A stretch of 37,703 bases of DNA, taken from positions 1-37,703 of the IMG/VR virus record IMGVR_UViG_3300026488_000036. One strand, 5' to 3'. The position numbers and the translations under genes were made by a program. The notes below the pieces were generated by a model. It saw only the letters and a list, made by a program, of their open reading frames with translations, had not been told where the DNA came from and searched no databases. This DNA comes from a virus. How positions within the stretch are numbered: position 1 is the first letter of the stretch; every line of letters begins with the position of its first letter. Shown piece after piece: positions 1,002 through 37,703 of this stretch.

Positions 1002-1028
1002 AAAATTTAACTGGAGTAAATGTAAACC

Positions 1029-1580: not shown

Positions 1581-1598
1581 CATGAGGAATAGTCACAA

Positions 1599-2507: not shown

Positions 2508-2518
2508 GAGCTAACAAA

Positions 2519-2950
2519 ATGGCAATAGATCCACGTACTTATCCTGCATTTACACTTTATCAATATCCTACAGATCCAACTTTAAATATTCCAAATTATC
2601 ATCTAAAGATACGCGTTTGGACTGACAAAGAAGTACTTAAATTAAAACCAATGTCTGAATATTTTCTCAAACGAATTTCATCGGAAAATTTACAGTACAA
2701 GATTTTATGTCCTCCACGATGGGATTTTAATACATATCGAGTTTTTCTAGTTATTAATAACGACGTACAACGGCCTACGCTACTTGCAAACTTTCGTGAT
2801 AACAATATTACCTTAGAGCTTTTCTATTACAAAGAACCTTACGTAATTTTCGATTTACATACTGATTCAGGTGAGTATGTCCGTTGGCTTTTCCGCTATT
2901 TGGATAAAGAACTAATATTGCTATCGAATACATATTTTATAAAGCAGTAA
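2519..2950 (+). CDS. Hypothetical protein
   Basis: 143 residues, starting 11 bases after the preceding stop with the ribosome site AGGAG. It is rich in aromatic residues and proline near the N-terminus (YPAFTLYQYPTDP) and predicted by eye to be beta-rich. No known motif. It shares tight spacing and orientation with its neighbours, so it is probably part of the same late operon. A reverse-strand open frame across 2599-2805 is judged to be a shadow. Confidence 0.7.
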   Translation: MAIDPRTYPAFTLYQYPTDPTLNIPNYHLKIRVWTDKEVLKLKPMSEYFLKRISSENLQYKILCPPRWDFNTYRVFLVINNDVQRPTLLANFRDNNITLELFYYKEPYVIFDLHTDSGEYVRWLFRYLDKELILLSNTYFIKQ

Positions 2951-2968
2951 AAAAGGAGTTTACGGGAT

Positions 2969-4006
2969 ATGGTTATAAAGAAATTAGGATGCTGGGGATA
3001 TATGTTTAATTCAGTTGAAGGGATTGTGAATTATAGTCCATATCCAAAAGGCTTTTGGTGTTGGTATTTAGATGGTGAAGATAACACTTGGAAACTCTTT
3101 GTATACAATCCAGCCATAAACCCTCCTTCCATCGAACTTATAGCAATACTTTATGCAATCTTCAAATATTATTACTTACGCGATCGTTTGAGAGATTTTT
3201 ATGCACTAATGGATCAAGTAGAGTTTCAAGTGAAAGTTTTTCCAAAAGACAACATGGTTGTTTATATAAATTACCGAAAAGAGTCAATTGGATATCCTAT
3301 ATCCTTAATTAAAACACAATATATCAATATCGATTGGGAAGATAATTACGGATTAGATCCCGCACATATGCAAATTCCAAGTTCACAATTGGATTATCAA
3401 ACAGTACGTGGATATATTCCAGTTACAACTCCATATCCAGCAACTCCATCGTTTGATTGCGAATCTGAACTCGCATTCCTTTATACATTTATTGATACAC
3501 ATGCTGAAGAATTTGATCCGCAGGATGTTAAAGATAAGATTTGCAGCTTTTTACGTGTGTTAATTGGACAAAGTAGAGATGCAGTTATTGCAGACCTAAA
3601 GTTTGCAGTTGATAAAGCTCCAGATGCTGCAACAAATGCAATTAAAGAACTATATACAATGCTTGAAAACTATCCATTAACTCGTGCGGTAGATGTATAT
3701 TTGACATTTGATAAAGAAACAATGGCTTCAGTTGTAGATGCATACGTTCGCAATCTAGGATTTACTTGTAACTCTGATATTTTTGTAGTTGCAGTAAATA
3801 ACGTTGGAGCATCACAATTAGTTTCATGCTTGCCCCAATTACTCGAAATAGAGGAAGGTTCCGAAATTGTTGATCTGCTAAATACTATTGCGGCAAATAA
3901 AGGGGTAGACGTAGCAGCTGCTTCATTAATTGAAGCATGTAATATGCTAAAGGCTGGGCATGGTATTAATGAAATCCTAGCATATTTAAATGATCAAACA
4001 ACCTAA
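2969..4006 (+). CDS. Hypothetical protein, two-part
   Basis: 345 residues, with an AAAAAGGAG ribosome site ahead of the ATG. The first 150 residues are aromatic and beta-like; the remainder (about 155-345) looks alpha-helical and is more acidic, with regular heptad-like Leu/Ala spacing, so it may be a two-domain protein. No family is recognised. It is the last gene before the hairpin terminator at 4024, so it closes the first set of late genes. Confidence 0.7.
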   Translation: MVIKKLGCWGYMFNSVEGIVNYSPYPKGFWCWYLDGEDNTWKLFVYNPAINPPSIELIAILYAIFKYYYLRDRLRDFYALMDQVEFQVKVFPKDNMVVYINYRKESIGYPISLIKTQYINIDWEDNYGLDPAHMQIPSSQLDYQTVRGYIPVTTPYPATPSFDCESELAFLYTFIDTHAEEFDPQDVKDKICSFLRVLIGQSRDAVIADLKFAVDKAPDAATNAIKELYTMLENYPLTRAVDVYLTFDKETMASVVDAYVRNLGFTCNSDIFVVAVNNVGASQLVSCLPQLLEIEEGSEIVDLLNTIAANKGVDVAAASLIEACNMLKAGHGINEILAYLNDQTT

Positions 4007-4023
4007 TTTATAGCGAAACTAAA

Positions 4024-4060
4024 GGTTGGGGAGCCTTTTAATGGCTCCCCAACTATTTTT
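4024..4060 (+). terminator. Rho-independent terminator
   Basis: A perfect 11-bp stem GTTGGGGAGCC (4025-4035) and GGCTCCCCAAC (4043-4053) with a TTTTAAT loop is followed by TATTTTT. It lies 18 bases after a stop codon. Its 3' arm contains an in-frame ATG (4041) of the next reading frame, which would be sequestered, one reason to place the next gene's start at 4086. Confidence 0.8.
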
Positions 4061-4085
4061 ACTACATCTTTTCGGAGTTGAAGGT

Positions 4086-5306
4086 ATGAGTGTAATCCAA
4101 ACGCAACATCTCAACTATCGCTTTGATATAAAAGTAAAAGTTTATACTGAAGCTGGAACATGGGATTTTTCCGATTTTCTAACTCACCTTGTAATTGAAG
4201 AAGGAGAGCATCTACTAACCTCATTTGTTGTCTTAGAATTTTACGGTCCTCTCGAAAAATTTTATAAAGCAAAAGTCTTTAAGTATGATGAGATTTATGA
4301 AGTTGAGGTAAAACTTTTTAACGATCAACATCAATTGGTTGACAAATTTAAATACAAGTTATTTCCTAAGAAATATGACACTGATTTATTCAATCACGTC
4401 CCAAAAGAAAAAGCAACATCTGATGAAAACATGACAAAATATGCCGTTGTTAAACATACAGTCTTTTGTATGCCGTATGGTGCAGATGGATACTGGGCAT
4501 GTTTTGCAAAAATTTACGAAAAGAAAAAATATAAAGAAATTTTCCAAGACTTTATATTTTCCGAACTCAAAAAATATCTCAAGTTAAATCAAAAGGAAAT
4601 TGATAAAGAGAGAAAGAATAATCAAAAATGGGAGCAATTTTTTATCCCATGGTGTCAAATTAAGAATGCAATTGCATTTGTTTTGCAAGCAGGTTATGGT
4701 GATAAATCTCCCTATACATATTACTATGATAATACTGGATTCAGATTGTATAACATAAAAGATCGATACAAAAAGAAAAAGAAGAAGATATACTTGTATC
4801 CAATATATCAATCGCAATGGGCTGATTTTAAGGAAATGTTTATTACTGATTTTTCAATTGAAACAAATCCTGACTTTAAACTCATGTTTGGCGGAAAGAA
4901 AAAGGAGCCCTTTAAATGGATTGGGTATTCTCGATTCAAAGAAGCAACAACAAAAGTTAAAAACATTGATTATCTAAAGGGAGAAAAATACTTCAAGAAA
5001 ATCTACACGAAGGCTCAATATCCAAAATGTATAACTCGTCATTACTTTTACAAGGATATAAATTTATGGGCAGATTTGAAAAATGTAAGAATGCAATTTG
5101 TGAAACTAAATGTTACAGCAAACCGTTGGAAAAAATTTGAGGATTTAAAACCCTATAAATATATCTGGCAAGTCAAATTTACAAATGAAAAACTAAAGGA
5201 TTTTGATGGCGATTACGTAATTGCAGGTTTACGACTTACACTAGATCGTCGTCATCAACAAACTCTACCTCGTCTAGATTTAACTTTTAAGAGGGCAATA
5301 AAATGA
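4086..5306 (+). CDS. Putative baseplate hub-like tail protein
   Basis: 406 residues from the ATG at 4086, chosen over an earlier TTG/ATG because those lie inside a terminator hairpin and because GGAGTTGAAGG precedes 4086. The N-terminal region begins with beta-strand-rich sequence (DIKVKVYTEAGTWDFSDFL, then SFVVLEFYGPLEKF), the style of the first domain of myophage hub proteins of the gp27 / late-control D type. The middle is very Lys-rich (KKKKKKIYLY near residue 232). The stop overlaps the terminase start in ATGA, indicating translational coupling. Assignment as hub is a judgement from sequence style and context, not a motif match. Confidence 0.45.
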   Translation: MSVIQTQHLNYRFDIKVKVYTEAGTWDFSDFLTHLVIEEGEHLLTSFVVLEFYGPLEKFYKAKVFKYDEIYEVEVKLFNDQHQLVDKFKYKLFPKKYDTDLFNHVPKEKATSDENMTKYAVVKHTVFCMPYGADGYWACFAKIYEKKKYKEIFQDFIFSELKKYLKLNQKEIDKERKNNQKWEQFFIPWCQIKNAIAFVLQAGYGDKSPYTYYYDNTGFRLYNIKDRYKKKKKKIYLYPIYQSQWADFKEMFITDFSIETNPDFKLMFGGKKKEPFKWIGYSRFKEATTKVKNIDYLKGEKYFKKIYTKAQYPKCITRHYFYKDINLWADLKNVRMQFVKLNVTANRWKKFEDLKPYKYIWQVKFTNEKLKDFDGDYVIAGLRLTLDRRHQQTLPRLDLTFKRAIK

Positions 5307-6949
5307 ATTTAACGCAAGAAGAAATCGTAAAGGAAATATTGAAATGTAGACAAGATCCGCTTTACTTTATCAAGAAGTATTGTAAAATACCTGCTCCTGA
5401 AGGAATCATAAAAGTAAAACTCTATCCAAAACAGGAAGAGATTATAAAATCCTGTCTTAATGATCACTATGTAATTATCCTTGGTTCAAGACAAACTGGT
5501 AAAACCACAAGTATTCAATTATTTACACTATGGCTTATGCTCTTTTATCCAAAGTATCAAGTTGCAATAACCTCTCGTTCTTCAAAAGCAATCGTAGATT
5601 TCATTAGAGAAATAATGGACATATATCATCTTTTACCAGATTTTCTCAAATTTGATAAACTTGTAATTGACAATGTTTTCGAAAAAGTTTTTCCAAATGG
5701 TTCGATAATTAGAGGAGTTCCTGTTAATCCACAGAATCCGGAAAATGCTGGTAGAGGTTTAAAGGCAGATTTTGTAATAATTGATGAGGCAGCATTCATC
5801 AAGGGAATTGACAAAGCATTTACTGCGTTAAAACCAGTTACCTCTCGTAGACATCTTAGACTTAAAAAAGCAGGACTACCCTATGGTATTGCAATTATAT
5901 CTACTCCCAATGGTATGTATGGAATTGGTGAATGGTTTTATAAAATGTGGGTTGGTGCATTAAATGGAGAAAATGGATATAAACCTATTAAATTCCACTG
6001 GAGGGACGTACCAGAATACGATGAAGAGTGGTTTAGAGAGCAAACAAAAGATATGTCCGAAAGAGATATCAATCAAGAATATGAACTGGTATTCTACGGT
6101 TCTGAATCCGCATTCTTCCCAGACTCCATCATTGAAAAACTACAAAGAGAAATTGGAAAACATAAACCAATTTCTGAGCTAAAACTACCAAGAGGTTATC
6201 TAAAACTCTATAAACCACTAGATAAAAATAGACTGTATTTGATAGGATGCGATCCTGCAGATTCTGGACAGGATTATGCTGCACTTGTAATTATTGACTA
6301 TGAAAGTGATGAAGTTGTAGGAGTATTTTACTCAAAAGAAATTTCAGTTTCCGAATTTACTGAAAATGTATTGTATCTAGCTCAATACCTTGAAAACAGT
6401 CTCATAATTTTTGAAAACAACGGAATTGGTAAAATGGCAGCTCAAGTATTATATCAAGCAAATCTAGCCCATAGAATGTACATTCCTTATGAAAAACGAT
6501 ATAGACGCGATGCATATAAACATGCGGGAATCTCAACCAATCGTAGTACTAGAAGATTAATGCTTGACGCTTTATATCACTATGTTGTAAACAATTGGAA
6601 TAAAATCTATGACTCAATGGTTCTTTCTCAGCTTGCTGCATTAGAATATAAAGGAGACAAAGTACAGGCTCCTAGCAATATGCATGATGACCTTGCAATG
6701 GCTTTAGCATTTACTCAATATGTGAAATACTATGGAAAAATCGAAGACTATCTAACTACACTTGGAATTAAAAAAGAGGAAGTTCTTAAGAATCTAGAAA
6801 TGCTAGTTGAGTTTAACCAGGATAAAGTTGAAAATACAGATAATTATCAATTTGAAAATCCAATTTTAAATATTCTTGCATCAGATATACAAAGTAAACA
6901 AGAAGCATCTAGTACTTTTGACAAAATTTTTGAGGAACCGGTTACATGA
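5303..6949 (+). CDS. Terminase large subunit
   Basis: 548 residues. This is the ATP-driven DNA-packaging motor with a headful/cleavage nuclease. The ATPase domain shows Walker A GSRQTGKTT (residues 61-69), Walker B FVIIDEAAF (about 157-165) and the coupling motif IISTPNG (198-204). The RNase H-like nuclease domain shows CDPADSGQD (D317), LIIFENNGIG (E371) and SNMHDDLAMAL (D463), the expected three acidic positions. Length is normal for a T4 gp17-like enzyme. It overlaps the upstream gene by ATGA and the downstream gene in the same way. No small terminase subunit is recognised nearby. Confidence 0.95.
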   Translation: MNLTQEEIVKEILKCRQDPLYFIKKYCKIPAPEGIIKVKLYPKQEEIIKSCLNDHYVIILGSRQTGKTTSIQLFTLWLMLFYPKYQVAITSRSSKAIVDFIREIMDIYHLLPDFLKFDKLVIDNVFEKVFPNGSIIRGVPVNPQNPENAGRGLKADFVIIDEAAFIKGIDKAFTALKPVTSRRHLRLKKAGLPYGIAIISTPNGMYGIGEWFYKMWVGALNGENGYKPIKFHWRDVPEYDEEWFREQTKDMSERDINQEYELVFYGSESAFFPDSIIEKLQREIGKHKPISELKLPRGYLKLYKPLDKNRLYLIGCDPADSGQDYAALVIIDYESDEVVGVFYSKEISVSEFTENVLYLAQYLENSLIIFENNGIGKMAAQVLYQANLAHRMYIPYEKRYRRDAYKHAGISTNRSTRRLMLDALYHYVVNNWNKIYDSMVLSQLAALEYKGDKVQAPSNMHDDLAMALAFTQYVKYYGKIEDYLTTLGIKKEEVLKNLEMLVEFNQDKVENTDNYQFENPILNILASDIQSKQEASSTFDKIFEEPVT

Positions 6950-7830
6950 TAGATTACGCTACAATTAATATCGTTGTAATACCTATTGGGATTTTGACAC
7001 GTGAAGATAGTATTATCTATATTCCGGATCCTGAAAATCCTATAGACTGGAAACCTTTTTGGGAAATTCTATTAAGGCAACATAGAGATATTTATGACGA
7101 AAATTTACTTCGAACGGTTACTTACAATCTCTTTGAATTCTACTATAACTTCCTGAAAGATTTAGGCGTGCATAAAAAGTATATTGATGTCAATCATGCA
7201 TTTTTCAATATGGATGAAAGTTTGCAAGTAGGCTACATATTACATCTATTTGAGCAATACTTTTTTAACATTCAACAAAAAACCAAAGCTGTATATGAAA
7301 TGGAACGACTTAAAAACTTTGCGCATGACTTGGTGAATGCATTAAATGGAATTTATCAAATATATAATGATGGAGCCGATTACTTTACATATTTGAAAGC
7401 ATACAGAGCATTGGTTGAGCAAATATATGCTATCGATATTGCAATTGGACAGTTTTGGGCATTAAATCAAGCTCTTCTTAGTTCATGGCTTTTTAAAAGG
7501 CCTTTTGAAGATCACTTTTTCAAAAGGCAAATTCTATTTAGAAATGCTACTCATTTATTTTTAATTAGTCCCTTGTTTAACGTAACGCATAATATGCAAG
7601 TGGCATGTTCATTTTTCAAGAAGACCCGTAAATTAAATTTTATAAAGCTTGTAACTGATAAGGAAGATACATATTATTACAAAGGGTTGCTTGCAGATTT
7701 ATATGATAACTTTGTAAATCCGAGTTATGTATTTTCCGCAGTTGCCGATACATATGACATTGATGACTTCTTCAATATTGACAATTTTGATACTCGTATT
7801 TATTTAACTAGAGAAATCGATTGTTGCTAA
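6946..7830 (+). CDS. Hypothetical protein, coupled to terminase
   Basis: 294 residues. The ATG overlaps the terminase stop (ATGA), so the two are translationally coupled. Mostly helical-looking and aromatic, with no membrane segment or recognised motif. It sits directly before the tape-measure candidate, a position often held by tail completion or tape-measure chaperone proteins, but no frameshift signal was identified. The coding sequence contains a 10-bp perfect hairpin at 7500-7528. Confidence 0.7.
   Translation: MIDYATINIVVIPIGILTREDSIIYIPDPENPIDWKPFWEILLRQHRDIYDENLLRTVTYNLFEFYYNFLKDLGVHKKYIDVNHAFFNMDESLQVGYILHLFEQYFFNIQQKTKAVYEMERLKNFAHDLVNALNGIYQIYNDGADYFTYLKAYRALVEQIYAIDIAIGQFWALNQALLSSWLFKRPFEDHFFKRQILFRNATHLFLISPLFNVTHNMQVACSFFKKTRKLNFIKLVTDKEDTYYYKGLLADLYDNFVNPSYVFSAVADTYDIDDFFNIDNFDTRIYLTREIDCC
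7500..7528 (+). repeat. Perfect 10-bp hairpin in coding sequence
   Basis: GCCTTTTGAA (7500-7509) pairs with TTCAAAAGGC (7519-7528) around a 9-base loop, inside the gene at 6946-7830. The arms are AT-rich, so this is less surprising by chance than the GC-richer cases in the right-hand region. Confidence 0.5.
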
Positions 7831-7863
7831 AGAAAACTATAGCATAAAAAAAGGTAGTAGACG

Positions 7864-10800
7864 ATGGAAGGAAATAAGCCACAAAATATACAAGGGTTAG
7901 ATAGTTTACTTAAGTCTTTTGCGAGTATTTTTAAGACTTTTCAAATAAAGAGTACTCATGATTATCTATTAAAAGGTATCCCTACATTTGAAGTTAGTGC
8001 AGGATTAACCGATGCTTCAAAAACCATCAGTGAATTGAATTTGGGTTCTCAAAAAATTCCCGTTAAAGTACTTAATATTGCCGAGGCGTTAGGAAATAAA
8101 CTTGCAAATCCAATTCATTCGAGATTTACCAGTCTCGATCAATTACGTCAAGTTTCTAAGGTATTTGAAACTGGTGCATATTTTCATGCTGCAAATCCTC
8201 TTGATATTGGATCTGCAGCCATCTTTGCCGTTGCAAAACTGTTTAATGCAGCTAACTTTGCGACTGCTGAACTTGCTCCAATTATCAGCGATATAATCCA
8301 GAAGACTGACAATACCTTCTTACAAACTTTACTTACAACACTATTTCATGGGCTATTACGAGCCCATGAAGCGCAAAAAGTAAGCACTACGGAAAAATAC
8401 CTAAGAAAGATAACCGATGTTATCACAAAAACCTATAGTGTACTTACTGATTTATTCACCTTTTTAAAGAGTAAGTTTGATGAAGTAATGTCTCATTTTA
8501 TCAACGATATGGATTCATTTTGGGCTGCATTAATCTCAGGAGGATCTTTCTTAACTCCCTTTGTAAAATTATTAATTGGTCCTCTAAAGGAAACAGTTGC
8601 TATAACCACTAAAATTGCCCTTGAATCTCTTAAAAGTATTCTAGGTAAACCCTTTGAGCGTCTACTTTTGAAATTTATCAGTCCTAAAGAAAATCCTCAA
8701 GTTAAAAAGCTTACTGAAATTCAAAATACACTTGTTAATATTTTAGAGGCAACTGAACAAGTAGCTTCTTTTTTAGAGGCCGGTTTAGGAGTTTCAGTAC
8801 CTGGCGCTGAAACACTAAGCAAAGTAAAAGAGAAACTAACTTCTCCTGTAATTAATCCTGAAACTTACATTCAGCGTAAAGTACAGGAAACCGCAACTAA
8901 AGCGACATCAAAAGTAACAAGTCTGTTAAGTAAACCTATAGAAGCAGGCTTTACAGGAATTTCTGGAAAAATTCTAGGATTAACACTTGCAGGAGTTGGT
9001 GCTGCATTTGGTTTATCTGCACTAAAAAAGCATTTTGAGTCAGAGAAAGTAGAAAGAACTATAAAGCCTGAGGAAGAAATACGAGCATTTATTGCTAGAC
9101 ATCCTATTCTCGAAAGAAGTATTAATATCATTAACAAATTCACATCTACAATTGACGAGGGACTACGTTCTCTTAAAGCCTCATTACTAAACTTCTTTGA
9201 AAAACAACGCGAAATTTACAAGGAGTTACCTTCTTATAAAGCTATTGAAGAATCTTTAGAAAAACGCGTAGCACAAGTAGAAACTCAACTAGATAAGTCG
9301 ATTAAAACTATTCAGTTTACTACATATTCAACAGTTGAAAAGATTACACTGCTTGGAGAAGTACTAGCATCCTCTATCACAAAGTCTCAGGAAGAATTTA
9401 AACAGTATAAACAATCACTTGTTGAAATTTTAAAGGATACTGAAAAATCATTTTTCACAAGAATTCTTTCAACTACTCTATCAATTGCATCTCATTTAAA
9501 TGAATTCCAAGCGCGTATAACAAAACGTCTTGAATCAGTTTTTATTAAAGCAGACGAATTGTATCGTAAGGTTGAAAGTTCCTTTGTTGGGCGTTTAGTT
9601 AAGACTACAATATCTGAGTTAGAATCTGTTTTAAAACCAGCTACGACTTACATTCAAGAAACTTATGATAAAACTCTTGCTTTACTTATCAAAATTCAAG
9701 CTGAAAAAATCCAAGAGGTAACTAATCAAACTGTAAAATCAATCGTATCCAGCTATAATCGTGTTGCAGCATATGGTGAATACTTCTTTACTAAACTAGA
9801 CAAGTTTATAGATACAAAAGTATTGCCATTTCTAAAAGATACTCTTATTTTTCTTACACTCGGAGTAAAGTATCTTAAAGTAGCATATCCAGATTTAAAA
9901 CGTAGCACTATCGAATTTATTCATAAACTTAGCAGGACAACCATTTCTGCATATACTACCTTAAAAAGTAGGCTGGCAAAAATTTACAAAGATTTCAACA
10001 TTGTTAAAGCTACTTTCTTCAATAAGTATTTACCGAAAATTGCTGCAGAATTTAAATCTACAACCATTTCACTACATAAAAACTTTGTAGAGTTAAATAC
10101 TGAGTATCTAAAACATACTGTTGCTAGTTTAACTAGATTTTACCACGGGCTTTCAAGTACATGGTATTCTCTCCAAAAGAAACTCACAAATAATGTAAAA
10201 ACATTACTATCGCAATTTACCAAGCAAAATATACAGCATACAAAAACTCTTCAAAAAACAACTCAAGTATTTATGCAACATACCTCTACGTTGTGGAAAA
10301 AGATTTCGAGTTTAACTGGTAAATTTTACAAAGATTCCGATTTACAATTTAAGCAACTTATTCGTATAATCCAAGAGAATTTAAAAACATTAAGCAATCA
10401 TGTCGTTACCTATATAAAAACGCTTCTTTCCAAAACTGAATCTCTTTTTAAAAGAGTATCTGAAAAGATAGAACAAACATTTTCATTTGTCAAAAAATTT
10501 ATTACTGGATTATTTAAACGAGTTTCCGGTTCAGTTCCAAGTATAATCAAAACAGTATCTTCCTTTTTCAAAAGTCAATCTGTGGATTGTAAAGCAGTTT
10601 ATAAAGATACTTTTTCTCAGGTTCGTAATTACATTGAGAAAGTCTCAAGTATGCAAACTAAAACCACAAGAAGTCTTTTTGAAACTTTTGCACATAAAAT
10701 ACATCTTGCTACAGATAAACTTGATAAATATACAAAATCAACTGTCAATGTAATTACTCGCATCATTCAACACTTTGCAACAAATCTTACGAGAACAAAG

Positions 10801-12141
10801 GAATCTATTCCTGGGTTTATTCAAGAGAAATTACGCACACTTGAAATATTAAAGCGGAAATTAAGTCTTTATGAGACAACTAGAAAAAATACAGTTTCCG
10901 AGAAGACAACTCAACTCCTGTCCTCTCTAAATAAAAAAATTGATAAACTGGTTGCTATAGAATCTCGTGTAGTTAAGAATCTAAAATCCGTACTTTCTAA
11001 ACTGATATCCTCTGGCTTCAGCTTATTTAAAAAAGCAAAAGGACTTTCTCTTACAGATATTTTTACTGGTATTGGATTATATCATGGTGCAAAGACTATT
11101 TTAGGAAAAACAAGAGCATTAATTGGAGCTGGAGTTAATTTAGGGAAAAATGCTGTAACTTCAATTGCTGAAGGTATTACAGCAAAAACTGCTACATCTA
11201 ACGTAAGCAAAACTATTGGTAGCCGAGTAGTTTCTATTTTCTCAGGAATTGGTAAGACTGCAACTGAATTTGGAGCACGTGTTCTTAGTTCTGAATTTGT
11301 ACATACAGTTGCAACTGGAGCTGCAAATATTCTAACTAAAGCTACACCTGCAACTGCTGCAATTTCCGCTTTAGCTCTACTGGGATATCTAGGATACAAA
11401 AAATACAAAGAACTAAAAGAAAACGAGAAATCTAAACTCCAGACTGAAAAAGAAAGTAAAGCATCCAAATCAAGTGCTAAAACTGAAGAAGAACGTAGCA
11501 TACATAGTAAAAAGGAAAATGAAATATCCAATGTTCATTTTAAAAACATAGCACATGAAGCTGAAACACATACTTTGCATAAACACCTATCCCATATAAC
11601 AAACGAAACTTTAAGGACTCTAGGGTATAATACACTGCCTGTTCCTGCAAAATCTGAAAAGGAAAGTTCAATTGCAAATACTGAGCTTCCAGAAAAACTT
11701 ACTACTCTTAGTAAAACTGTCAATCAACACGTAAATACAACTTCTGCAGTTGTAAAAAGTGAAAACGTAGTTGTAGTAACTGAATCTAAAAAAGCCTCAA
11801 AATTAAATACACTTTTAGAAAACACAACTAGACCTATTTCAAATATTGAAGAATATTGGATGCTACAAAACATTCCAGAAACTGTATCAATGTCAACACG
11901 TAACATCTCTGCTGAAAAACTCAAAGAGATGTACACTGATAGCTCTAAAATTAGCAAATACTTTAAGGAGCTTAAAGACTATATTACCAACTTCTTTAAA
12001 CAAAGTACTTCCAAAAATGCTCCAGTTGTTGCTCCTGTTATGAACAACGTATCTAATGCAACAAATACTATCATCAATAATACAACAATCAAAGGAGGTT
12101 TAGATACTTATTATCCAGATAGTACCTACACTGGATTCTAA
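7864..12141 (+). CDS. Putative tape measure protein
   Basis: 1425 residues, the longest gene in the window. Almost entirely helical, with long coiled-coil-like stretches rich in Lys, Ser, Thr and Leu between about 400 and 1050. Hydrophobic glycine/alanine segments occur near residues 363-391 (GLTLAGVGAAFGLSAL) and 1161-1182 (AAISALALLGYLGY), as is usual in tape measures. The C-terminus is low-complexity Asn/Thr. Length, position after terminase and fold style support a tail-length-setting protein; an internal head protein is the alternative. No lysozyme or peptidase motif was seen. Weak ribosome site (AAGGTAG) 6 bases upstream. Confidence 0.65.
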   Translation: MEGNKPQNIQGLDSLLKSFASIFKTFQIKSTHDYLLKGIPTFEVSAGLTDASKTISELNLGSQKIPVKVLNIAEALGNKLANPIHSRFTSLDQLRQVSKVFETGAYFHAANPLDIGSAAIFAVAKLFNAANFATAELAPIISDIIQKTDNTFLQTLLTTLFHGLLRAHEAQKVSTTEKYLRKITDVITKTYSVLTDLFTFLKSKFDEVMSHFINDMDSFWAALISGGSFLTPFVKLLIGPLKETVAITTKIALESLKSILGKPFERLLLKFISPKENPQVKKLTEIQNTLVNILEATEQVASFLEAGLGVSVPGAETLSKVKEKLTSPVINPETYIQRKVQETATKATSKVTSLLSKPIEAGFTGISGKILGLTLAGVGAAFGLSALKKHFESEKVERTIKPEEEIRAFIARHPILERSINIINKFTSTIDEGLRSLKASLLNFFEKQREIYKELPSYKAIEESLEKRVAQVETQLDKSIKTIQFTTYSTVEKITLLGEVLASSITKSQEEFKQYKQSLVEILKDTEKSFFTRILSTTLSIASHLNEFQARITKRLESVFIKADELYRKVESSFVGRLVKTTISELESVLKPATTYIQETYDKTLALLIKIQAEKIQEVTNQTVKSIVSSYNRVAAYGEYFFTKLDKFIDTKVLPFLKDTLIFLTLGVKYLKVAYPDLKRSTIEFIHKLSRTTISAYTTLKSRLAKIYKDFNIVKATFFNKYLPKIAAEFKSTTISLHKNFVELNTEYLKHTVASLTRFYHGLSSTWYSLQKKLTNNVKTLLSQFTKQNIQHTKTLQKTTQVFMQHTSTLWKKISSLTGKFYKDSDLQFKQLIRIIQENLKTLSNHVVTYIKTLLSKTESLFKRVSEKIEQTFSFVKKFITGLFKRVSGSVPSIIKTVSSFFKSQSVDCKAVYKDTFSQVRNYIEKVSSMQTKTTRSLFETFAHKIHLATDKLDKYTKSTVNVITRIIQHFATNLTRTKESIPGFIQEKLRTLEILKRKLSLYETTRKNTVSEKTTQLLSSLNKKIDKLVAIESRVVKNLKSVLSKLISSGFSLFKKAKGLSLTDIFTGIGLYHGAKTILGKTRALIGAGVNLGKNAVTSIAEGITAKTATSNVSKTIGSRVVSIFSGIGKTATEFGARVLSSEFVHTVATGAANILTKATPATAAISALALLGYLGYKKYKELKENEKSKLQTEKESKASKSSAKTEEERSIHSKKENEISNVHFKNIAHEAETHTLHKHLSHITNETLRTLGYNTLPVPAKSEKESSIANTELPEKLTTLSKTVNQHVNTTSAVVKSENVVVVTESKKASKLNTLLENTTRPISNIEEYWMLQNIPETVSMSTRNISAEKLKEMYTDSSKISKYFKELKDYITNFFKQSTSKNAPVVAPVMNNVSNATNTIINNTTIKGGLDTYYPDSTYTGF
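8345..8370 (+). repeat. Perfect 10-bp hairpin in coding sequence
   Basis: TTCATGGGCT (8345-8354) pairs with AGCCCATGAA (8361-8370) across the 6-base loop ATTACG, within the tape-measure reading frame. There is no T-tract after it, so it is not an ordinary terminator. Confidence 0.55.
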
Positions 12142-12706: not shown

Positions 12707-13429
12707 ATGCAAAGCGATATGAATCAAAAACTGCTACTTGCGGAAAAGTTTTTCTCAGTGCAAGGAGAATATCCACGAGTTGGCTATCCATGTGTATTCT
12801 ACCGTTTTTACAAGTGTAATTTTAAGTGTCCTTTTTGTGATACGATGAAAGATGGGTTTCTACCTTATACAAGCTATAGCATCAAAGAGCTTGTCAAGGA
12901 ATATGAAGAAAAATACAAAGGAATTGGTATTACATTTACAGGTGGAGAACCAGGATTATTTGCGTCGAGTATCTACAATTTCTTAAAGGCAATTCCTATT
13001 ATAATTCCGTATGTGATAATTGAAACCAACGGTACTTTTTTAAAGCAAGAAAATATTGATATGCTATACTCATGCTCGCATCTGGAAAAATTTTTCATCA
13101 CAGTGTCTCCAAAATACTACATGTACAAAGATAATCTTGAGAAGTATTTTGAAAGCGAGTATTATAAGAATATTCTCGAATTTTTCAAAATTGAAAAAGC
13201 AGTATATTTAAAACTTGTTGTTGATCCACAATATCCACTAGAATTCTTCAGGAAAATTGTAGAAGACTTTATTCATGCATCGCCTTTTGAAAACTGGAGA
13301 ATTTCTCTCATGCCTTTAACTGGAAATGATGAATTGCATGAACAAAGCGTTGCATATATAAAAGAGCTTATTTTGACTTACTACATTGGATTTTCACCGC
13401 GTATTCATCTAACCTACAGATTTAGATAA
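12707..13429 (+). CDS. queE: 7-carboxy-7-deazaguanine synthase-like (QueE)
   Basis: 240 residues; radical SAM enzyme converting 6-carboxy-tetrahydropterin to 7-carboxy-7-deazaguanine in the preQ0/queuosine pathway. The N-terminal EKFFSVQGEYPRVGYP matches the QueE F.S.QGEG...G.P opening. The cluster motif is KCNFKCPFCDT (C37, C41, C44), the CxxxCxxC form. TFTGGEPG (GGEP at 79-82) and IIETNGT are further radical SAM/QueE signatures. The ribosome site AAGGAGGT lies 12 bases before the ATG, slightly far; a TTG at better spacing runs out of frame. Followed 17 bases later by the DpdA-like gene, which supports a role in DNA base modification. Confidence 0.88.
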   Translation: MQSDMNQKLLLAEKFFSVQGEYPRVGYPCVFYRFYKCNFKCPFCDTMKDGFLPYTSYSIKELVKEYEEKYKGIGITFTGGEPGLFASSIYNFLKAIPIIIPYVIIETNGTFLKQENIDMLYSCSHLEKFFITVSPKYYMYKDNLEKYFESEYYKNILEFFKIEKAVYLKLVVDPQYPLEFFRKIVEDFIHASPFENWRISLMPLTGNDELHEQSVAYIKELILTYYIGFSPRIHLTYRFR

Positions 13430-13446
13430 AAAGAGGAGGTTTATAC

Positions 13447-14832
13447 ATGTCTCAGTATTATCCGAAAACTATACATAATCATATTTTCGACTATGTCGAC
13501 GTTGGAGCGCAACAAATTGCTCAAATTGCAGAAAATTTTGTAAAGGAAAATTATGTGTCAAAAGAAGATATCATAAGGTTTTTCAAAGAAAGTCTCTCAA
13601 ATTTCCTACATAGTGCTGGTGTAGAAATGACTCCACTTCGTAAAGATGAAAAGAAACTCCTGAATTTCATTACATCAGGAAAATTCACCGAGAGACTTAA
13701 AAAATTTGTTAACTATATAAATTCAAGTCCCTATTTAAAACACACTGGAATTTTTATAGACTCAGGCGGTTATCAAATTGCAATCGGTATTATTCCTAAA
13801 AAAGCAATACTTGAATATGCTCCACGTTACCTACAGTTTCTAAAAGAAACTGATGATTTCTCAATTGCATTCTCAATGGATATTCCTGCAGATTATCCAA
13901 TTGTAAATAATGTAAATGAACTCTATACTCTCAACTCTTATACAACACGTCTTATCTTTGAATACGGAATTGAAGACAAGATAACCTATGTCTACCATTT
14001 TAGAGGAAAAGGTTTAAATTATATTTGGAATCAAATTATGCAAAAATACAATGTGTTCAAGTATATTAATAAGTATGCTATTGGTGGTTTTGCATCGCAT
14101 GGGAAAAAGCCAAACATTCCATTTCCAATGTACATTCCTCAATTTGTAAACGTACTTGGAAATGCAATAAAATCTAAAAATCCAAAATTACCAAAATTCC
14201 ATTTTCATATCCTTGGAGTTTCAGGTTTTGCAGATTTTATGCAAGGTATTCTTATTGCATTAGCTTCTCGAGAATTCCATAATATAGAAACTCATGTAAC
14301 CGCAGACTCAAGCAGACTATTTACTCAACTTGCAAGAGCATATCAAGTTGAAATCTTTTTAGAAAATAAACTAGGTAAACTTGAGTTTAAAAGCAAAGAG
14401 TTACATAAACGCAACAAATTCTTTAACAAAAGTAACTACGAATTATGCATGCAATGTATAAATTACTTAAATGAGAAATACAATTTCAAACTACCAACTA
14501 CATTCAAAGTATATGATGATAATGGAAAAATCAACAAAATCTTTTTAAATGCACTTATCCTCTATATGATGAATAATTGTCAGCAACTTATTGCGCATCT
14601 AATAAATGAATGCAAAGAACTTATAAACTACTACAAAACCAGACAGAAATCAAAGTTTAATATGAAAGTCCGAGAAATTTTCAAAGAGCTTGGAATGTCT
14701 CATAGTTTTTATGCAAATTTAGATTACTGGGGAGGTTTAGAGTTAATCGAAAGTCTAAATATAAATAGAGCACATCAAATATTAAATCGCCTATATGACG
14801 ATTTTGAGGTATTTAAACGTAAACTAGCTTAA
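13447..14832 (+). CDS. DpdA-like DNA/tRNA-guanine transglycosylase
   Basis: 461 residues, AGAGGAGGT ribosome site. TRNA-guanine transglycosylase superfamily: GIFIDSGGYQ (D105; compare TDSGGFQ in TGT), FSMDIPADYP (D145), AIGGFASHG (GG at 213-214), FHILGVSGF (254-261) and VTADSSR (about 284-290) fall in the order seen in TGT and phage DpdA proteins. Paired with queE, the likely role is exchange of guanine in phage DNA for a 7-deazaguanine derivative, protecting it from restriction. The C-terminal 150 residues differ from canonical TGT and the usual zinc-site pattern is not obvious, which favours DpdA over a tRNA enzyme. The other preQ0 genes (folE, queD, queC) are not in the window. Confidence 0.78.
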   Translation: MSQYYPKTIHNHIFDYVDVGAQQIAQIAENFVKENYVSKEDIIRFFKESLSNFLHSAGVEMTPLRKDEKKLLNFITSGKFTERLKKFVNYINSSPYLKHTGIFIDSGGYQIAIGIIPKKAILEYAPRYLQFLKETDDFSIAFSMDIPADYPIVNNVNELYTLNSYTTRLIFEYGIEDKITYVYHFRGKGLNYIWNQIMQKYNVFKYINKYAIGGFASHGKKPNIPFPMYIPQFVNVLGNAIKSKNPKLPKFHFHILGVSGFADFMQGILIALASREFHNIETHVTADSSRLFTQLARAYQVEIFLENKLGKLEFKSKELHKRNKFFNKSNYELCMQCINYLNEKYNFKLPTTFKVYDDNGKINKIFLNALILYMMNNCQQLIAHLINECKELINYYKTRQKSKFNMKVREIFKELGMSHSFYANLDYWGGLELIESLNINRAHQILNRLYDDFEVFKRKLA

Positions 14833-32660: not shown

Positions 32661-33461
32661 ATGGTTAAGAAAATTGTAACTCATGTAAATCCAAGACATC
32701 TCGACGATACTTTAGCGGTAGCGCTTTTGGCATACAAATACCCTGAAGCGCAAATTGAATATATACATCCACAAAATGACAAAGAGAAAATAGAAAAATA
32801 CCTCAATGATTCATCAATTATATGCGTAGATATAGGAGGGAAATACAATCCCAAGTTTAAAAATTATGACCATCATCAAGATAAGAACGTAGAGTGTTCT
32901 CTAGTACTTATATTAAAACATGAATTTCCTGAACTTTATGAATTCATCAAGAAACATGAAATATTATCAAAGGAAATGAAATACATTGATATTAAAGACA
33001 GGTTTGGATTAAAAGAAGCCCAAAAATTAGGGGTATCCAATTTATTTATCGAAGAGGCCATTTTACTTAAGATGGCCGAAAATCCAGAAAATATGCAAAT
33101 TATAGGGAAAGCATTTTATGACAAATTAAATGAAATGTTGCAAGAATACAAAAACTTACAACAAATTGAAATCATCAATTACAATGGATATAAAATCGCA
33201 ATTGATAAAATCGGAATTAGATTTACAACAATTGTAAACAATCTAGATGTGGATTTAGTTATACAAAGAAATGTATTTGACAAAAGCGATACATCAATCA
33301 TCAAAGAAACAAGTAAGGAGAAAACAAAGAATATCGATTTCAACAAATTAAGGGAGAAATATTCAATTAAGTTTATTCACCAAGCGGGATTTATAGCGGT
33401 AATTGCAAAATCAATTGAGGAGTTGAATATAAAAGAATTGATTAGAGATATATTGGGCTAG
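32661..33461 (+). CDS. MYG1-like DHH-family protein
   Basis: 266 residues, ribosome site AAAGGGAGGTGG. The N-terminus IVTHVNPRHLDDTLAVALLA corresponds to the MYG1 signature THNGTFHxDExLAxxLL, and ICVDIGGKYNPKFKNYDHHQ matches its VDVGGxYDPxxxxYDHHQ, so the metal-ligand residues His, Asp and the DHH triad are present. Known MYG1 proteins are 3'-5' exonucleases acting on RNA. A phage copy might degrade RNA, or oligonucleotides made by host defence; that use is inference. The C-terminus (LIHQAGFIAVIAKS-like) fits the MYG1 end. The stop lies in a terminator hairpin. Confidence 0.75.
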   Translation: MVKKIVTHVNPRHLDDTLAVALLAYKYPEAQIEYIHPQNDKEKIEKYLNDSSIICVDIGGKYNPKFKNYDHHQDKNVECSLVLILKHEFPELYEFIKKHEILSKEMKYIDIKDRFGLKEAQKLGVSNLFIEEAILLKMAENPENMQIIGKAFYDKLNEMLQEYKNLQQIEIINYNGYKIAIDKIGIRFTTIVNNLDVDLVIQRNVFDKSDTSIIKETSKEKTKNIDFNKLREKYSIKFIHQAGFIAVIAKSIEELNIKELIRDILG

Positions 33462-33489
33462 GGTTCCCTAGCCCATATTTTTTTTTTCG
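33455..33489 (+). terminator. Rho-independent terminator
   Basis: GGGCTAGGG (33455-33463), TT, CCCTAGCCC (33466-33474), then ATATTTTTTTTTT. The stem contains the stop codon of the preceding gene. Confidence 0.92.
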
Positions 33490-33502: not shown

Positions 33503-33540
33503 TATAAATAATCTCACAAAAAAATTTTAAAAGGGAGGTG
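33503..33540 (+). promoter_or_regulatory. TATAAATAAT promoter box, leader class A
   Basis: TATAAATAAT (33503-33512) followed by CTCACAAAAAAATTTTAAAA and GGGAGGTG, ATG at 33545. The 12-mer TTTATTAAACTA just upstream (33491-33502) is also found at 17599. Class A leaders recur at 35941 and 37263. Confidence 0.82.
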
Positions 33541-33544
33541 GGTT

Positions 33545-33775
33545 ATGATTAAATTAATTTTAAACGAAGTAGAATTAAAAGAAGTACTTGCGGCTGGAAT
33601 AAAAATCGGCCGCGTAAGATACATATGGGACAGACATTTTGAAATTGTAATTCCTAAAGAAAAATTAACTGAAGTGGAGCTTGCTTGCAAGCTCTACGCA
33701 TGGGACTGGCTTGACTTCGACGAGCAAATACAGATTATTCAATATATTGATAAATTAAAAGGGCGGGTCGATTAA
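33545..33775 (+). CDS. Hypothetical small accessory protein
   Basis: 76 residues, class A leader with AAAGGGAGGTGG. Mixed alpha/beta: MIKLILNEVELKEVLAAGIK, then a strand KIGRVRYIWDRHFEIVIP and a C-terminal helix. Contains an 11-bp hairpin (33674-33697) with one G-U pair. Unknown function. The C-terminal codons run into the terminator at 33761. Confidence 0.65.
   Translation: MIKLILNEVELKEVLAAGIKIGRVRYIWDRHFEIVIPKEKLTEVELACKLYAWDWLDFDEQIQIIQYIDKLKGRVD
33674..33697 (+). repeat. 11-bp hairpin in coding sequence
   Basis: GAGCTTGC (33677-33684) and GCAAGCTC (33687-33694) are perfect, extended to 33674/33697 by G-C, T-A and one G-U pair, with a TT loop (effectively a four-base loop). It lies inside the gene at 33545. 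Confidence 0.65.
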
Positions 33776-33801
33776 AACCCGCCCTCATATTTTTTTTTTT
33801 G
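33761..33801. terminator. Bidirectional terminator between convergent genes
   Basis: GGGCGGGT (33761-33768) and ACCCGCCC (33777-33784) form a perfect stem followed by a long T-tract (33790-33800). It overlaps the last codons of the + gene and sits before the minus-strand gene's stop (33811); read from the other strand the stem is followed by TTTT. Confidence 0.92.
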
Positions 33802-34446: not shown

Positions 34447-34496
34447 TATAAATAATAACCCAGGGGATTACCCGGTTAATTTTTGGGTAATCCCCT
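34447..34496 (+). promoter_or_regulatory. TATAAATAAT box immediately followed by a 12-bp stem-loop
   Basis: TATAAATAAT (34447-34456) then AACCC, and AGGGGATTACCC (34462-34473) pairs perfectly with GGGTAATCCCCT (34485-34496). Unlike the other copies there is no A-rich leader; the transcript would begin with a hairpin. There is AAAATT but no long T-tract after it, so attenuation or 5'-end protection are both possible. Confidence 0.7.
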
Positions 34497-34519
34497 AAAA
34501 AATTAAAAGGAGGTGTATC

Positions 34520-34552
34520 ATGATTGAGATCATTTTATCATTATTGGCGTAA
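34520..34552 (+). CDS. Ten-codon leader-type ORF
   Basis: AAGGAGGTG at 34507-34515 precedes ATG at 34520, opening the ten-codon frame MIEIILSLLA ended by TAA. It sits between a promoter-proximal hairpin and the terminator stem at 34571. With a strong ribosome site and no larger downstream gene before the terminator, it may be a regulatory leader peptide or a micropeptide; hydrophobic enough to be membrane-active. Low certainty. Confidence 0.4.
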   Translation: MIEIILSLLA

Positions 34553-34570
34553 AAAAATGCAATTGGCTAA

Positions 34571-34612
34571 GAGGAGGAGCGGTGCTCCTCCTCTCCTCCT
34601 ATTTATTTTTTC
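34571..34612 (+). terminator. Terminator with Shine-Dalgarno-like stem
   Basis: GAGGAGGAGC (34571-34580), GGT, GCTCCTCCTC (34584-34593), then TCCTCCTATTTATTTTTT. A perfect 10-bp stem. The 5' arm carries AGGAGG and the 3' arm plus tail CTCCTCC repeats resemble anti-SD sequence; the transcript therefore ends in strong SD and anti-SD motifs. Confidence 0.8.
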
Positions 34613-34648
34613 GTTTCTGTTTTATTTTTTTTTTAATTCAAGTTACTG

Positions 34649-34690: not shown

Positions 34691-35047
34691 ATGGCAAAAA
34701 TTCTAGATTGCACAGGATGGAAAATTGACTACATTCAATTTGGAAGACCTGGATCTGTAGATGAACTTTGCCTTGAGGTGGAACAGGGTTCTCCAATTGA
34801 AGTTGTATACAAAACAAAAGAATCTAATCATCCACTTATCAAAACTTATGTCATTCCTGAACTTAGAATTCCAAACATTAACCCAGAGCCAGGTACTGTA
34901 ATTCTAATTGACAAATCTATTCTCCCATATGCAAAGCAAATATGGGAGAAATTAGGACCTGTAGAGCTCTGGGTTGTAATGGGAGTAGATCTTGATGGAA
35001 ATAGTAATAGATATGTATCAGAAGATCAAATACATAGAGTGCCTTAA
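34691..35047 (+). CDS. Accessory family A protein, copy 1
   Basis: 118 residues, ribosome site AGGAGGT. Paralogous to the genes at 35124 and 37305: shared opening W/CTGW.I.Y(I/V).(F/W), a central EPGTVILIDKSILPYAKQIW element and a C-terminal aromatic, acidic end (NRYVSEDQIHRV). Predicted small alpha/beta protein, no known motif. Contains a perfect 11-bp hairpin at 34920-34950 and a longer-range 9-bp pairing around it. Function unknown. Confidence 0.7.
   Translation: MAKILDCTGWKIDYIQFGRPGSVDELCLEVEQGSPIEVVYKTKESNHPLIKTYVIPELRIPNINPEPGTVILIDKSILPYAKQIWEKLGPVELWVVMGVDLDGNSNRYVSEDQIHRVP
34880..34975 (+). repeat. Nested hairpins in coding sequence
   Basis: The inner stem is TTCTCCCATAT (34920-34930) with ATATGGGAGAA (34940-34950), 11 bp perfect, loop GCAAAGCAA. 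An outer pairing AACCCAGAG (34880-34888) with CTCTGGGTT (34967-34975) encloses it. Part of the inner pairing (CCATAT/ATATGG) is forced by the conserved PY.KQIW codons and is present in weaker form in the paralogue at 35124. Confidence 0.6.
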
Positions 35048-35123: not shown

Positions 35124-35474
35124 ATGACAGTATGGGACTGCAGCAAATACGGAATTGAGTACATTAAATTTGAAAACAAATGCATAAAAGTAATTCCTGT
35201 TTTACCTATAAAAATTGAGTATAAACAAAAAAGCTCAAATTGTTCTCTCATCAAATCTGGTATTACACTAGAACTTGAAATCCCAATGTTTACACCTAAA
35301 CCTGGCGACGTTATCCTTGTCGATGACGATCAACTACCATATGTAAAGCAAATATGGGAAGAAATCTATCCAATGGTTAAAGGAACTATTGATTTCTGGT
35401 ATGTTACAGATGCAAAAGAAGATGATAGTGGACATATGTATGCAAATGCAAGTGACATATATAGAATCCTTTGA
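35124..35474 (+). CDS. Accessory family A protein, copy 2
   Basis: 116 residues, AAAGGAGGT ribosome site. Aligns by eye with copies 1 and 3: MTVWDCSKYGIEYIKF at the start, KPGDVILVDDDQLPYVKQIW in the middle, HMYANASDIYRIL at the end. No clear TATAAATAAT box is visible just upstream; it follows a terminator, so either a diverged promoter or read-through is needed. Its coding sequence lacks the strong hairpins of copy 3. Confidence 0.7.
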   Translation: MTVWDCSKYGIEYIKFENKCIKVIPVLPIKIEYKQKSSNCSLIKSGITLELEIPMFTPKPGDVILVDDDQLPYVKQIWEEIYPMVKGTIDFWYVTDAKEDDSGHMYANASDIYRIL

Positions 35475-35509
35475 TTATTTTTCTCATAGATTTAAAAGAG
35501 GTAAAAAAA

Positions 35510-35890
35510 ATGAATAAAGACGCTTTAAGAAAATTGGGCCTACTATTAAAAATTCTTGGAATCATACATAAATTCGACTCCGAAAATCTAAAGGCATATC
35601 GCTTTATTGACATTGAAGGAAATGACGTCGTGGAATTTGATTTAAAAGACAAAAAAGATTTAGACTGGCTACTTTACGATCTTACCGAAAGTAAAATAAA
35701 CCAATTTCTCAATGATTTAGTTTTAGATATAATTGATGCAATCGATCTTAAATCCAGCGTCCATAATCCTGATGAATTCATTTGGATTTATTTTGAAGAT
35801 GCAACTCAAAGAAAAGCAAGAGCAATAAAAGAAAGAATTAAAAGGAGAGTTTTAAGTATTGTAAAACCGTTTAAAGATGTGCGGCTGTGA
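35510..35890 (+). CDS. Accessory family B protein, copy 1 (no hairpins)
   Basis: 126 residues from the ATG at 35510 (AAAAGAGGT upstream; a more upstream ATG at 35471 lacks a ribosome site). Paralogue of the next gene: ALRKLGLLLKILGI matches DLRKLGLLLKVLGI, followed by KFD..NL..Y.FI, a DL...L..L region and a C-terminal I...KPFK. Helical, charged, unknown function. Read by eye its coding sequence has no strong inverted repeats, in contrast with its paralogue, which makes it the natural control. Confidence 0.7.
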   Translation: MNKDALRKLGLLLKILGIIHKFDSENLKAYRFIDIEGNDVVEFDLKDKKDLDWLLYDLTESKINQFLNDLVLDIIDAIDLKSSVHNPDEFIWIYFEDATQRKARAIKERIKRRVLSIVKPFKDVRL

Positions 35891-35940: not shown

Positions 35941-35977
35941 TATAAATAATCTCACAAAAAATTTTAAAGGGAGGTGG
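35941..35977 (+). promoter_or_regulatory. TATAAATAAT promoter box, leader class A
   Basis: TATAAATAAT (35941-35950) followed by CTCACAAAAAATTTTAAAGG and GAGGTG, ATG at 35981. Drives the hairpin-array gene. Confidence 0.85.
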
Positions 35978-35980
35978 ATT

Positions 35981-36367
35981 ATGAGAAAAGATTTAAGAAA
36001 ATTGGGATTATTATTGAAGGTTTTGGGGATTGTCGATAAATTTGATCCCCAAAACCTTCAAAGTTACTATTTCATAAGTGATGACTTCGGAAATGTTTCC
36101 GAAGTCATCACTTACAATCTAAAAGATGAAGGAGATCTTGTAGATCTCCTTCATCAACTAACAACAAGAAAAGTGGACGATCTCATTGACGAGATCGTCC
36201 TACGTATATTAGAGACAGTAGATACTGTCTCTTATCGGTATAATTTTGACGCGTTCGTCTGGAATGAATTTCCAGACGAACGCGCGGAAAGAGCAGAAAA
36301 AATAAAGCAAAAAATAAAGAATAAAATTCTAGATATCATAAAACCATTCAAGACCCTGGAGGGGTAA
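35981..36367 (+). CDS. Accessory family B protein, copy 2: hairpin-array gene
   Basis: 128 residues from the ATG at 35981, chosen because AAAGGGAGGTG precedes it (an earlier in-frame ATG at 35930 lies upstream of the promoter). The protein resembles the 35510 product throughout (RKLGLLLKVLGI, KFDPQNL, LHQLT...VDDLIDEIV, IIKPFK). The coding sequence is a run of six perfect inverted repeats that together take up nearly half of its bases, with a seventh stem as terminator. Synonymous and conservative codon differences from the paralogue fall where they make the arms complementary. The protein is therefore probably ordinary and the structure is at the nucleic-acid level. Function unknown. Confidence 0.75.
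   Translation: MRKDLRKLGLLLKVLGIVDKFDPQNLQSYYFISDDFGNVSEVITYNLKDEGDLVDLLHQLTTRKVDDLIDEIVLRILETVDTVSYRYNFDAFVWNEFPDERAERAEKIKQKIKNKILDIIKPFKTLEG
36014..36284 (+). repeat. Array of six perfect hairpins within one reading frame
   Basis: Stems: (1) 17 bp, TTGAAGGTTTTGGGGAT 36014-36030 with 36045-36061, loop 14; (2) 19 bp, 36075-36093 with 36096-36114, loop TG; (3) 14 bp, GATGAAGGAGATCT 36125-36138 with 36142-36155, loop TGT; (4) 10 bp, GGACGATCTC 36175-36184 with 36191-36200; (5) 10 bp, AGAGACAGTA 36211-36220 with 36223-36232; (6) 15 bp, CGCGTTCGTCTGGAA 36250-36264 with 36270-36284, loop TGAAT. All are mismatch-free. The arm sequences differ completely between hairpins; centres are about 34-57 bases apart. 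Confidence 0.95.
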
Positions 36368-36388
36368 CCTCCAGGGTCTTTTTTTTCG
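36350..36388 (+). terminator. Rho-independent terminator, seventh stem
   Basis: AAGACCCTGGAGG (36350-36362) pairs with CCTCCAGGGTCTT (36368-36380); the loop carries the stop codon TAA; followed by a T-tract. The 5' arm is coding. Confidence 0.93.
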
Positions 36389-37262: not shown

Positions 37263-37299
37263 TATAAATAATCTCACAAAAAAAAATTTAAAGGGAGGT
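37263..37299 (+). promoter_or_regulatory. TATAAATAAT promoter box, leader class A
   Basis: TATAAATAAT (37263-37272) followed by CTCACAAAAAAAAATTTAAA and GGGAGGTG, ATG at 37305. Third class A leader; all three class A genes carry hairpins in their frames. Confidence 0.85.
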
Positions 37300-37304
37300 G
37301 CGCG

Positions 37305-37673
37305 ATGAAAATTTGGAATGCTTCAGGAATACACTTGAATTATGTATACTGGGAAGGGGCATCCTTCCCAGTATACGAAATTGAACCTTTCAAAATCAAA
37401 TATAATCTAATTTTACGTGCGGGACATCCAATGTGCTCCGCACGCTACGAATGGGATTTTGAGTTCCCCTTCCAGTTAGAGGAAGGGGAACTCAAGGCGG
37501 GGGACATTATATTGATAAATAAAGATCTAATCCCACTGGCGAGGGAGCTAAAGAAAGAACTTATACTTCTCGCCAGGGGGGTGGTGGATGTTTTCGTTAT
37601 CGATCCAAGTGAAATAAAAGAAGATAATGAAGGAAGAAGATACGTAGATTCTGAGGGGCTCTACGAAGTATAG
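37305..37673 (+). CDS. Accessory family A protein, copy 3: second hairpin-array gene
   Basis: 122 residues, ribosome site AAAGGGAGGTG. Paralogue of the genes at 34691 and 35124: KIWNASGIHLNYVYW at the start, LKAGDIILINKDLIPLAREL in the middle, RRYVDSEGLYEV at the end. Its coding sequence carries a chain of perfect or near-perfect hairpins that the other two copies largely lack. GC content is visibly higher in the stem arms than elsewhere. Unknown function. The stop codon lies in the loop of the last stem. Confidence 0.75.
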   Translation: MKIWNASGIHLNYVYWEGASFPVYEIEPFKIKYNLILRAGHPMCSARYEWDFEFPFQLEEGELKAGDIILINKDLIPLARELKKELILLARGVVDVFVIDPSEIKEDNEGRRYVDSEGLYEV

Positions 37674-37684
37674 TAGAGTTCCTC
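37344..37684 (+). repeat. Second hairpin array inside a reading frame
   Basis: Stems: GTATACTGGGAAGG 37344-37357 with 37363-37376 (14 bp perfect, loop GGCAT); CGTGCGG 37416-37422 with 37438-37444 (7 bp, with a further inner GACAT pairing across a bulge); TTGAGTTCCCCTTCC 37459-37473 with 37481-37495 (15 bp perfect, loop AGTTAGA); CTGGCGAG 37536-37543 with 37569-37576 (8 bp, extended by CCC/GGG across a bulged A); GAGGGGCTCTAC 37653-37664 with GTAGAGTTCCTC 37673-37684 (12 bp including two G-U pairs), terminator-like but without a T-tract. Confidence 0.88.
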
Positions 37685-37693
37685 AATCCATCG

Positions 37694-37703
37694 CCCCCCC
37701 CCC
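37694..37703. other. Terminal poly-C run
   Basis: Ten C in a row at the very end of an AT-rich window. No similar run occurs elsewhere. Most likely an assembly or sequencing end artefact, although a real element cut by the window end is not excluded. Confidence 0.5.

Follow-up and report, generated by a model that had tools for sequence, protein, structure and literature searches.

What turns a phage coding sequence into a row of hairpins, and does it act on one gene or on a whole class of loci? The question was raised by an ORF at positions 37305 to 37673 (+ strand) of a linear IMG/VR virus contig (IMGVR_UViG_3300026488_000036), the whole 37,703 nucleotides of which are referred to here as the window. 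The original prediction, made from the letters alone, described this ORF, which encodes a protein of a family named A, as a second hairpin-array gene unrelated to a first one of family B (35981 to 36367). It also held that both genes use the same promoter leader (class A), which would point to a process that affects a class of loci and is not peculiar to one gene.

Genomic setting

The window belongs to a T4-like phage, as a gp17-like terminase, a gp20-like portal and a T4-type major capsid protein are all present. A second contig, IMGVR_UViG_3300026484_000545 (G001, 77,831 bp), overlaps positions 1 to 10919 of the window with 99.5% identity and lengthened the genome leftward. Both array genes lie in a cluster of small ORFans between 31 and 37.7 kb, where seven TATAAATAAT boxes were counted in the window against 0.9 expected. 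Most of these boxes precede a leader rich in A and a strong Shine-Dalgarno sequence, and terminators close several of the units. Terminator stems with a T run occurred at gene ends only (36350-36380, 33760-33785 and 33454-33475), and the long ORF-internal stems on the sense strand carry no intrinsic-terminator T tail.

The same cluster includes a gene for a MYG1/UPF0160-like protein (32661-33461; Pfam E 1e-10), a surprising find in a phage late region, and a tiny transcription unit (34447-34620) made of a late promoter box, a 12-bp leader hairpin, a very short ORF and an 11-bp terminator hairpin, which may be a small RNA. Elsewhere in the window (12707-14832), a QueE-like radical SAM gene precedes an ORF resembling DpdA/tRNA-guanine transglycosylase (a likeness seen by eye only; Pfam gives no match), and the pair suggests 7-deazaguanine DNA modification.

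Two hairpin-packed genes

All five predicted stems of the 122-aa family A ORF exist on the + strand. They are a perfect 14-bp stem (GTATACTGGGAAGG/CCTTCCCAGTATAC, loop of 5; 37344-37376), a 7-bp stem (CGTGCGG/CCGCACG) with an inner 4-bp pairing (ACAT/ATGT; 37416-37444), a perfect 15-bp stem (TTGAGTTCCCCTTCC/GGAAGGGGAACTCAA, loop of 7; 37459-37495), an 8-bp stem (CTGGCGAG/CTCGCCAG, loop of 25; 37536-37543/37569-37576) continued after a bulge by an ATCCC/GGGGT extension (37531-37581 as a whole), and a 12-bp stem with two G-U pairs (GAGGGGCTCTAC/GTAGAGTTCCTC; 37653-37684). The last of these runs through the frame only in part, as it straddles the stop codon and its right arm falls past the TAG at 37671-37673; its position is terminator-like, but the T run is missing after it. 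The sense RNA of the ORF folded at -129.3 kcal/mol, compared with -102.6 +/- 5.8 kcal/mol for codon shuffles that preserve both the protein and its codon usage (z -4.6, and z -4.0 in a repeat). For the transcript 37268-37690, z reached -9.05 against dinucleotide shuffles, with 0 of 100 equally stable. By density of perfect stems, this ORF ranked second among the 115 ORFs of the window and the overlapping contig G001.

The first rank went to the family B gene (35981-36367, + strand), in which six perfect internal stems (17, 19, 14, 10, 10 and 15 bp) stand within 271 nt and a 13-bp terminator hairpin with a T8 tail (36350-36380) overlaps the stop codon. Its RNA departed from codon shuffles more strongly than that of the family A gene (z -7.8 to -10.3). 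Sense and antisense folds of the array genes were about equally extreme, and fold strength therefore does not indicate the transcript strand.

Given these z values and the first two ranks of 115, chance and composition are excluded for both array genes. That chance, an amino-acid-composition constraint or an assembly artefact accounts for the arrays is hardly credible: the family A ORF does have a higher GC content (41%), and even its codon shuffles reach a fairly stable fold (-102 kcal/mol), but z ranges from -4 to -10 against codon shuffles and the dinucleotide shuffles never came as low, and an artefact is unlikely with the frames open and the paralogue alignment continuing across the hairpins, which excludes chimeric reads. 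The observation of hairpin-packed ORFs is confirmed; the structural feature is unusual and well supported, and the mechanism discussed below is a proposal.

A run of C (37692-37703), possibly an assembly end artefact, closes the contig just past the second array gene, and more array genes may lie beyond position 37703. The contig stops 30 bases past that gene, perhaps because hairpins hinder assembly, which would suit a DNA-level element acting near the contig end through cruciforms or single-strand hairpins in replication, recombination or packaging. Perfect Watson-Crick pairing would also suit DNA. Against such an element, the arrays track ORFs and their leaders, skipping the intervening genes, and the hairpins have no common recognition sequence; we consider this explanation very improbable.

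Protein families and their paralogues without arrays

That the arrays occupy two unrelated coding contexts was borne out, since families A and B differ and each has paralogues without an array in the same window (23-25% and 46% amino acid identity). In family A, our own search recovered the paralogue at 35124-35474 (+ strand; z -1.0 to -1.6) at 3e-11, and another at 34691-35047 (+ strand; z about -2.9) has a single 11-bp internal stem at 34920-34950. The family B paralogue (35504-35890, + strand; 46% identity, z +1.5 to +2.1) adjoins the array gene, equals it in length and has zero stems. With the paralogue match at 3e-11 and predicted folds of pLDDT 82 for family A (AlphaFold2 from 3 sequences) and 78 for family B (from two sequences), the two families very probably represent real proteins. 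No domain could be assigned reliably to either of them with Pfam or PHROGs, a Foldseek comparison of family A with the PDB stayed without a match (best E 0.11), and neither the two families nor the intervening gene had a homologue outside the window in the phages, viral_contigs and genome_contigs searched.

Conservation of the hairpins in the paralogue was unsupported on comparison. At the protein level, the family B left arms, right arms and remaining sequence were 50%, 38% and 50% identical to the paralogue, and arms plus loops were 43% identical against 50% elsewhere (P 0.48). Wholesale copying of the arms from unrelated sequence was likewise rejected: residues of the family persist in both arms (P 1e-6 or less against 6%), and the arms are thus no insertion of foreign sequence. 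Of the double changes relative to this 46%-identical paralogue, which is the sole comparator, 11 of 22 were complementary (P 0.08-0.16), which does not make the changed pairs clearly compensatory.

The class A leader and the extent of the hairpin excess

The leader of the family A array gene (37263-37304, + strand) consists of a T4-type late promoter box (TATAAATA), an A-rich unpaired leader and a strong Shine-Dalgarno sequence (GGGAGGTG), the box upstream of the ORF being that of a T4-type late transcription unit. Class A leaders also stand at 35941-35980 and 33503-33544 (both + strand), in front of the first array gene and of a third gene. As originally stated, both array genes have the same leader, TATAAATAATCTCACAAAAAA...GGGAGGTG, and an identical TATAAATAATCTCACAAAAAA is found upstream of 33545, 35981 and 37305. 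The exact leader was absent from every other viral contig searched; a looser pattern picked up 25 unrelated chance contigs and serves as background only.

The third class A leader precedes a 76-aa ORF (33545-33775, + strand), in which two stems (one of 10 bp with a single G-U, the other GCGGC/GCCGC) occur together with a terminator. Stem content no higher than in codon-shuffled controls had been named as the outcome that would speak against the class, and the class withstood this comparison, with z of about -8 to -10, -4 to -4.6 and -3.2 for its three members. By stem density these ranked 1, 2 and 9 of 115 (exact rank-sum P 9e-5), two of the three genes having defined the class. The sole independent member, 33545-33775, was modestly enriched, with the eighth-lowest z among 183 folded ORF segments. 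Other late-leader genes were mostly unremarkable, with the exception of 34691 and its one 11-bp stem.

The excess extends beyond these genes. After removal of the two array genes, the late ORFans of 31-37.7 kb were still somewhat enriched (P 0.008, a post hoc value), and the ORFs of the rest of the genome held 8 internal perfect stems of at least 11 bp against 1.06 expected (P 1.5e-5). In other T4-like contigs, 0 ORF-internal stems of this length were found, with about 0.5 expected. The picture is of a weak tendency throughout the genome, from which two genes stand out as extreme peaks. That some process works on a class of loci is therefore plausible, but the link to class A consists of three genes, two of them defining, and the excess is also partly regional and weakly genome-wide. 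The relevant class may be the late ORFans in general rather than the genes with a class A leader. We regard as unlikely the stronger form of the idea, a promoter-defined class of late genes whose unrelated proteins have been recoded to give an mRNA that is one chain of perfect hairpins throughout, as a generic, sequence-independent programme of RNA structure within coding sequence.

Wobble pairs and a structured locus on G001

When stems are extended without regard to pair type, the family B array yields 100 Watson-Crick pairs but not a single G-U pair. RNA-selected stems normally contain wobble pairs. On the sense strand, the class A units together had 4 G-U against 1 A-C internal mismatch, the family B gene contributing none. 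The + strand of a comparison locus on G001 (L038:13107-13532) differed from the family B array in this respect (6 G-U pairs to 74, or six in 80; Fisher P 0.007). The lack of G-U in 100 pairs suggests that one DNA arm was copied from the other.

These counts bear on the possibility that the arrays are purely selected RNA, in which dual-function transcripts would encode a protein and also act as a structured RNA (a decoy, a regulator or a protein-binding array) reached by ordinary substitution. The strong fold of the whole transcript (z -9, 37268-37690), the leader common to the array genes and the plausible predicted structures of both encoded proteins are all consistent with it. Yet the hairpins have no common loop or stem sequence, Rfam gave no match above the gathering score, and zero G-U pairs in the family B gene would be unusual for stems under RNA selection alone, which makes this origin quite improbable.

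The comparison locus itself folds in an ornate, RNA-like manner (z -11.25), and most of its wobble pairs suit the + strand (6 to 1). It lies opposite to an ORF (L038:13223-13675) and upstream of an IS607-type element, and it had no Rfam match. We tried the ORF as a fourth array gene, as it is strongly folded, and rejected it: the wobble pairs fit the strand opposite the ORF, and the locus was therefore taken as a separate candidate, a putative large structured non-coding RNA. The IS607-type element of this T4-like phage (L038:14269-16564) consists of a serine recombinase with a MerR-like HTH and a TnpB/Cas12f-like protein. An exact 18-nt direct repeat (AGTGCAGCCCGGTCCGGT; L038:13746-13763 and 14002-14019) flanks a segment adjoining the element.

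Proposed origin and retention of the arrays

The reading that we favor, tentatively and at somewhat less than even probability, is that the arrays were built by DNA template switching and then kept since a compactly folded late message is advantageous. Template switching is the part that we infer as the builder: through quasipalindrome (QP) correction, one arm of an imperfect inverted repeat would template the other. Short-loop perfect inverted repeats exceed the codon-shuffled expectation, as the footprint of such a process would. Yeast offers documented cases of arm homogenization within coding sequence, and the model is credited to Ripley in bacteriophages (PMC8604942). Template switching both creates and mends RNA stems (PMC8794818), and transcription raises QP mutation in yeast, in a study that also mentions QP changes in phage T4 (PMC3820800).

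Such mutagenesis, which strong late transcription may have raised, could also leave the arrays as a functionless by-product in late ORFans under weak constraint. This neutral origin is somewhat doubtful, though a serious possibility: the perfect, G-U-free family B stems, the surplus of long stems inside ORFs across the genome of this phage, the regional excess in the late ORFan cluster and the transcription-associated QP mutation known in yeast (PMC3820800) all agree with it, but a single gene of 390 nt holds six independent stems while its adjacent paralogue of equal length holds none, and the arms are conserved no less than the remaining protein (P 0.48). Arm composition also weighs against it. 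The arms have 46% GC in family B (P 0.005) and 61% in family A (P 6e-5) against 32% for the genome, with GC3 of 47% in arms against 19% outside (B) and 67% against 33% (A). Arms made by copying native sequence would be expected at about 32% GC, so the higher values favor retention. Together with the kept protein homology and the confinement to particular transcription units, GC-rich arms suggest retention as mRNA structure. A further point on this side is that the first stem begins about 34 to 40 nt past the start codon. The GC bias leaves retention unproven because stable hairpins might themselves prime template switches better.

Under template switching followed by retention, the arrays would have been retained chiefly in a small number of class A late genes, as stem-loops in late, apparently monocistronic and strongly initiated mRNAs whose folding would be the advantage. 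The simplest benefit would be that late mRNA is hidden from single-strand-specific endoribonucleases, and the unpaired leader would leave initiation free. This shielding is hypothetical and drawn by analogy with T4, in which the host RNase LS cuts single-stranded RNA of late mRNAs and secondary structure is thought to mask its sites (PMC3014915).

If the hairpins are selected, coding sequences of a group defined by a promoter leader would have been shaped wholesale to fold, and one could test directly whether late mRNA of phages is protected or controlled through its structure. Should they be neutral, the locus would preserve a dense natural record of how template switching mutates coding genes, and would do so in a T4-like phage, the type of system where the mechanism was first proposed.

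Comparison with known systems

Our non-exhaustive search of the open-access literature turned up no earlier account of phage ORFs with such arrays. The closest likeness is to quasipalindrome/template-switch mutation (the Ripley model), which likewise gives perfect short-loop inverted repeats in coding DNA with one arm templating the other; a 16-bp perfect inverted repeat has been reported in a yeast gene (PMC8604942; PMC8794818; PMC3820800). The known cases have a single repeat per gene, whereas the array genes have six and four or more stems and a common promoter class. T4 late genes resemble them in their TATAAATA late promoters and in late transcripts whose secondary structure is believed to cover the sites of RNase LS (Dmd/RNase LS; PMC3014915). 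Unlike for the genes studied here, we found no description of a perfect ORF-internal hairpin array in T4. Arbiol et al. in 2010, as cited in PMC4177764, reportedly described mobile promoter/stem-loop cassettes of T4-type phages, which lie between small ORFans and carry early promoters. The array genes share with these cassettes a repeated promoter leader combined with stem-loops, but the cassette stem-loops are intergenic and come with early promoters, whereas those of the array genes stand inside ORFs behind late promoters.
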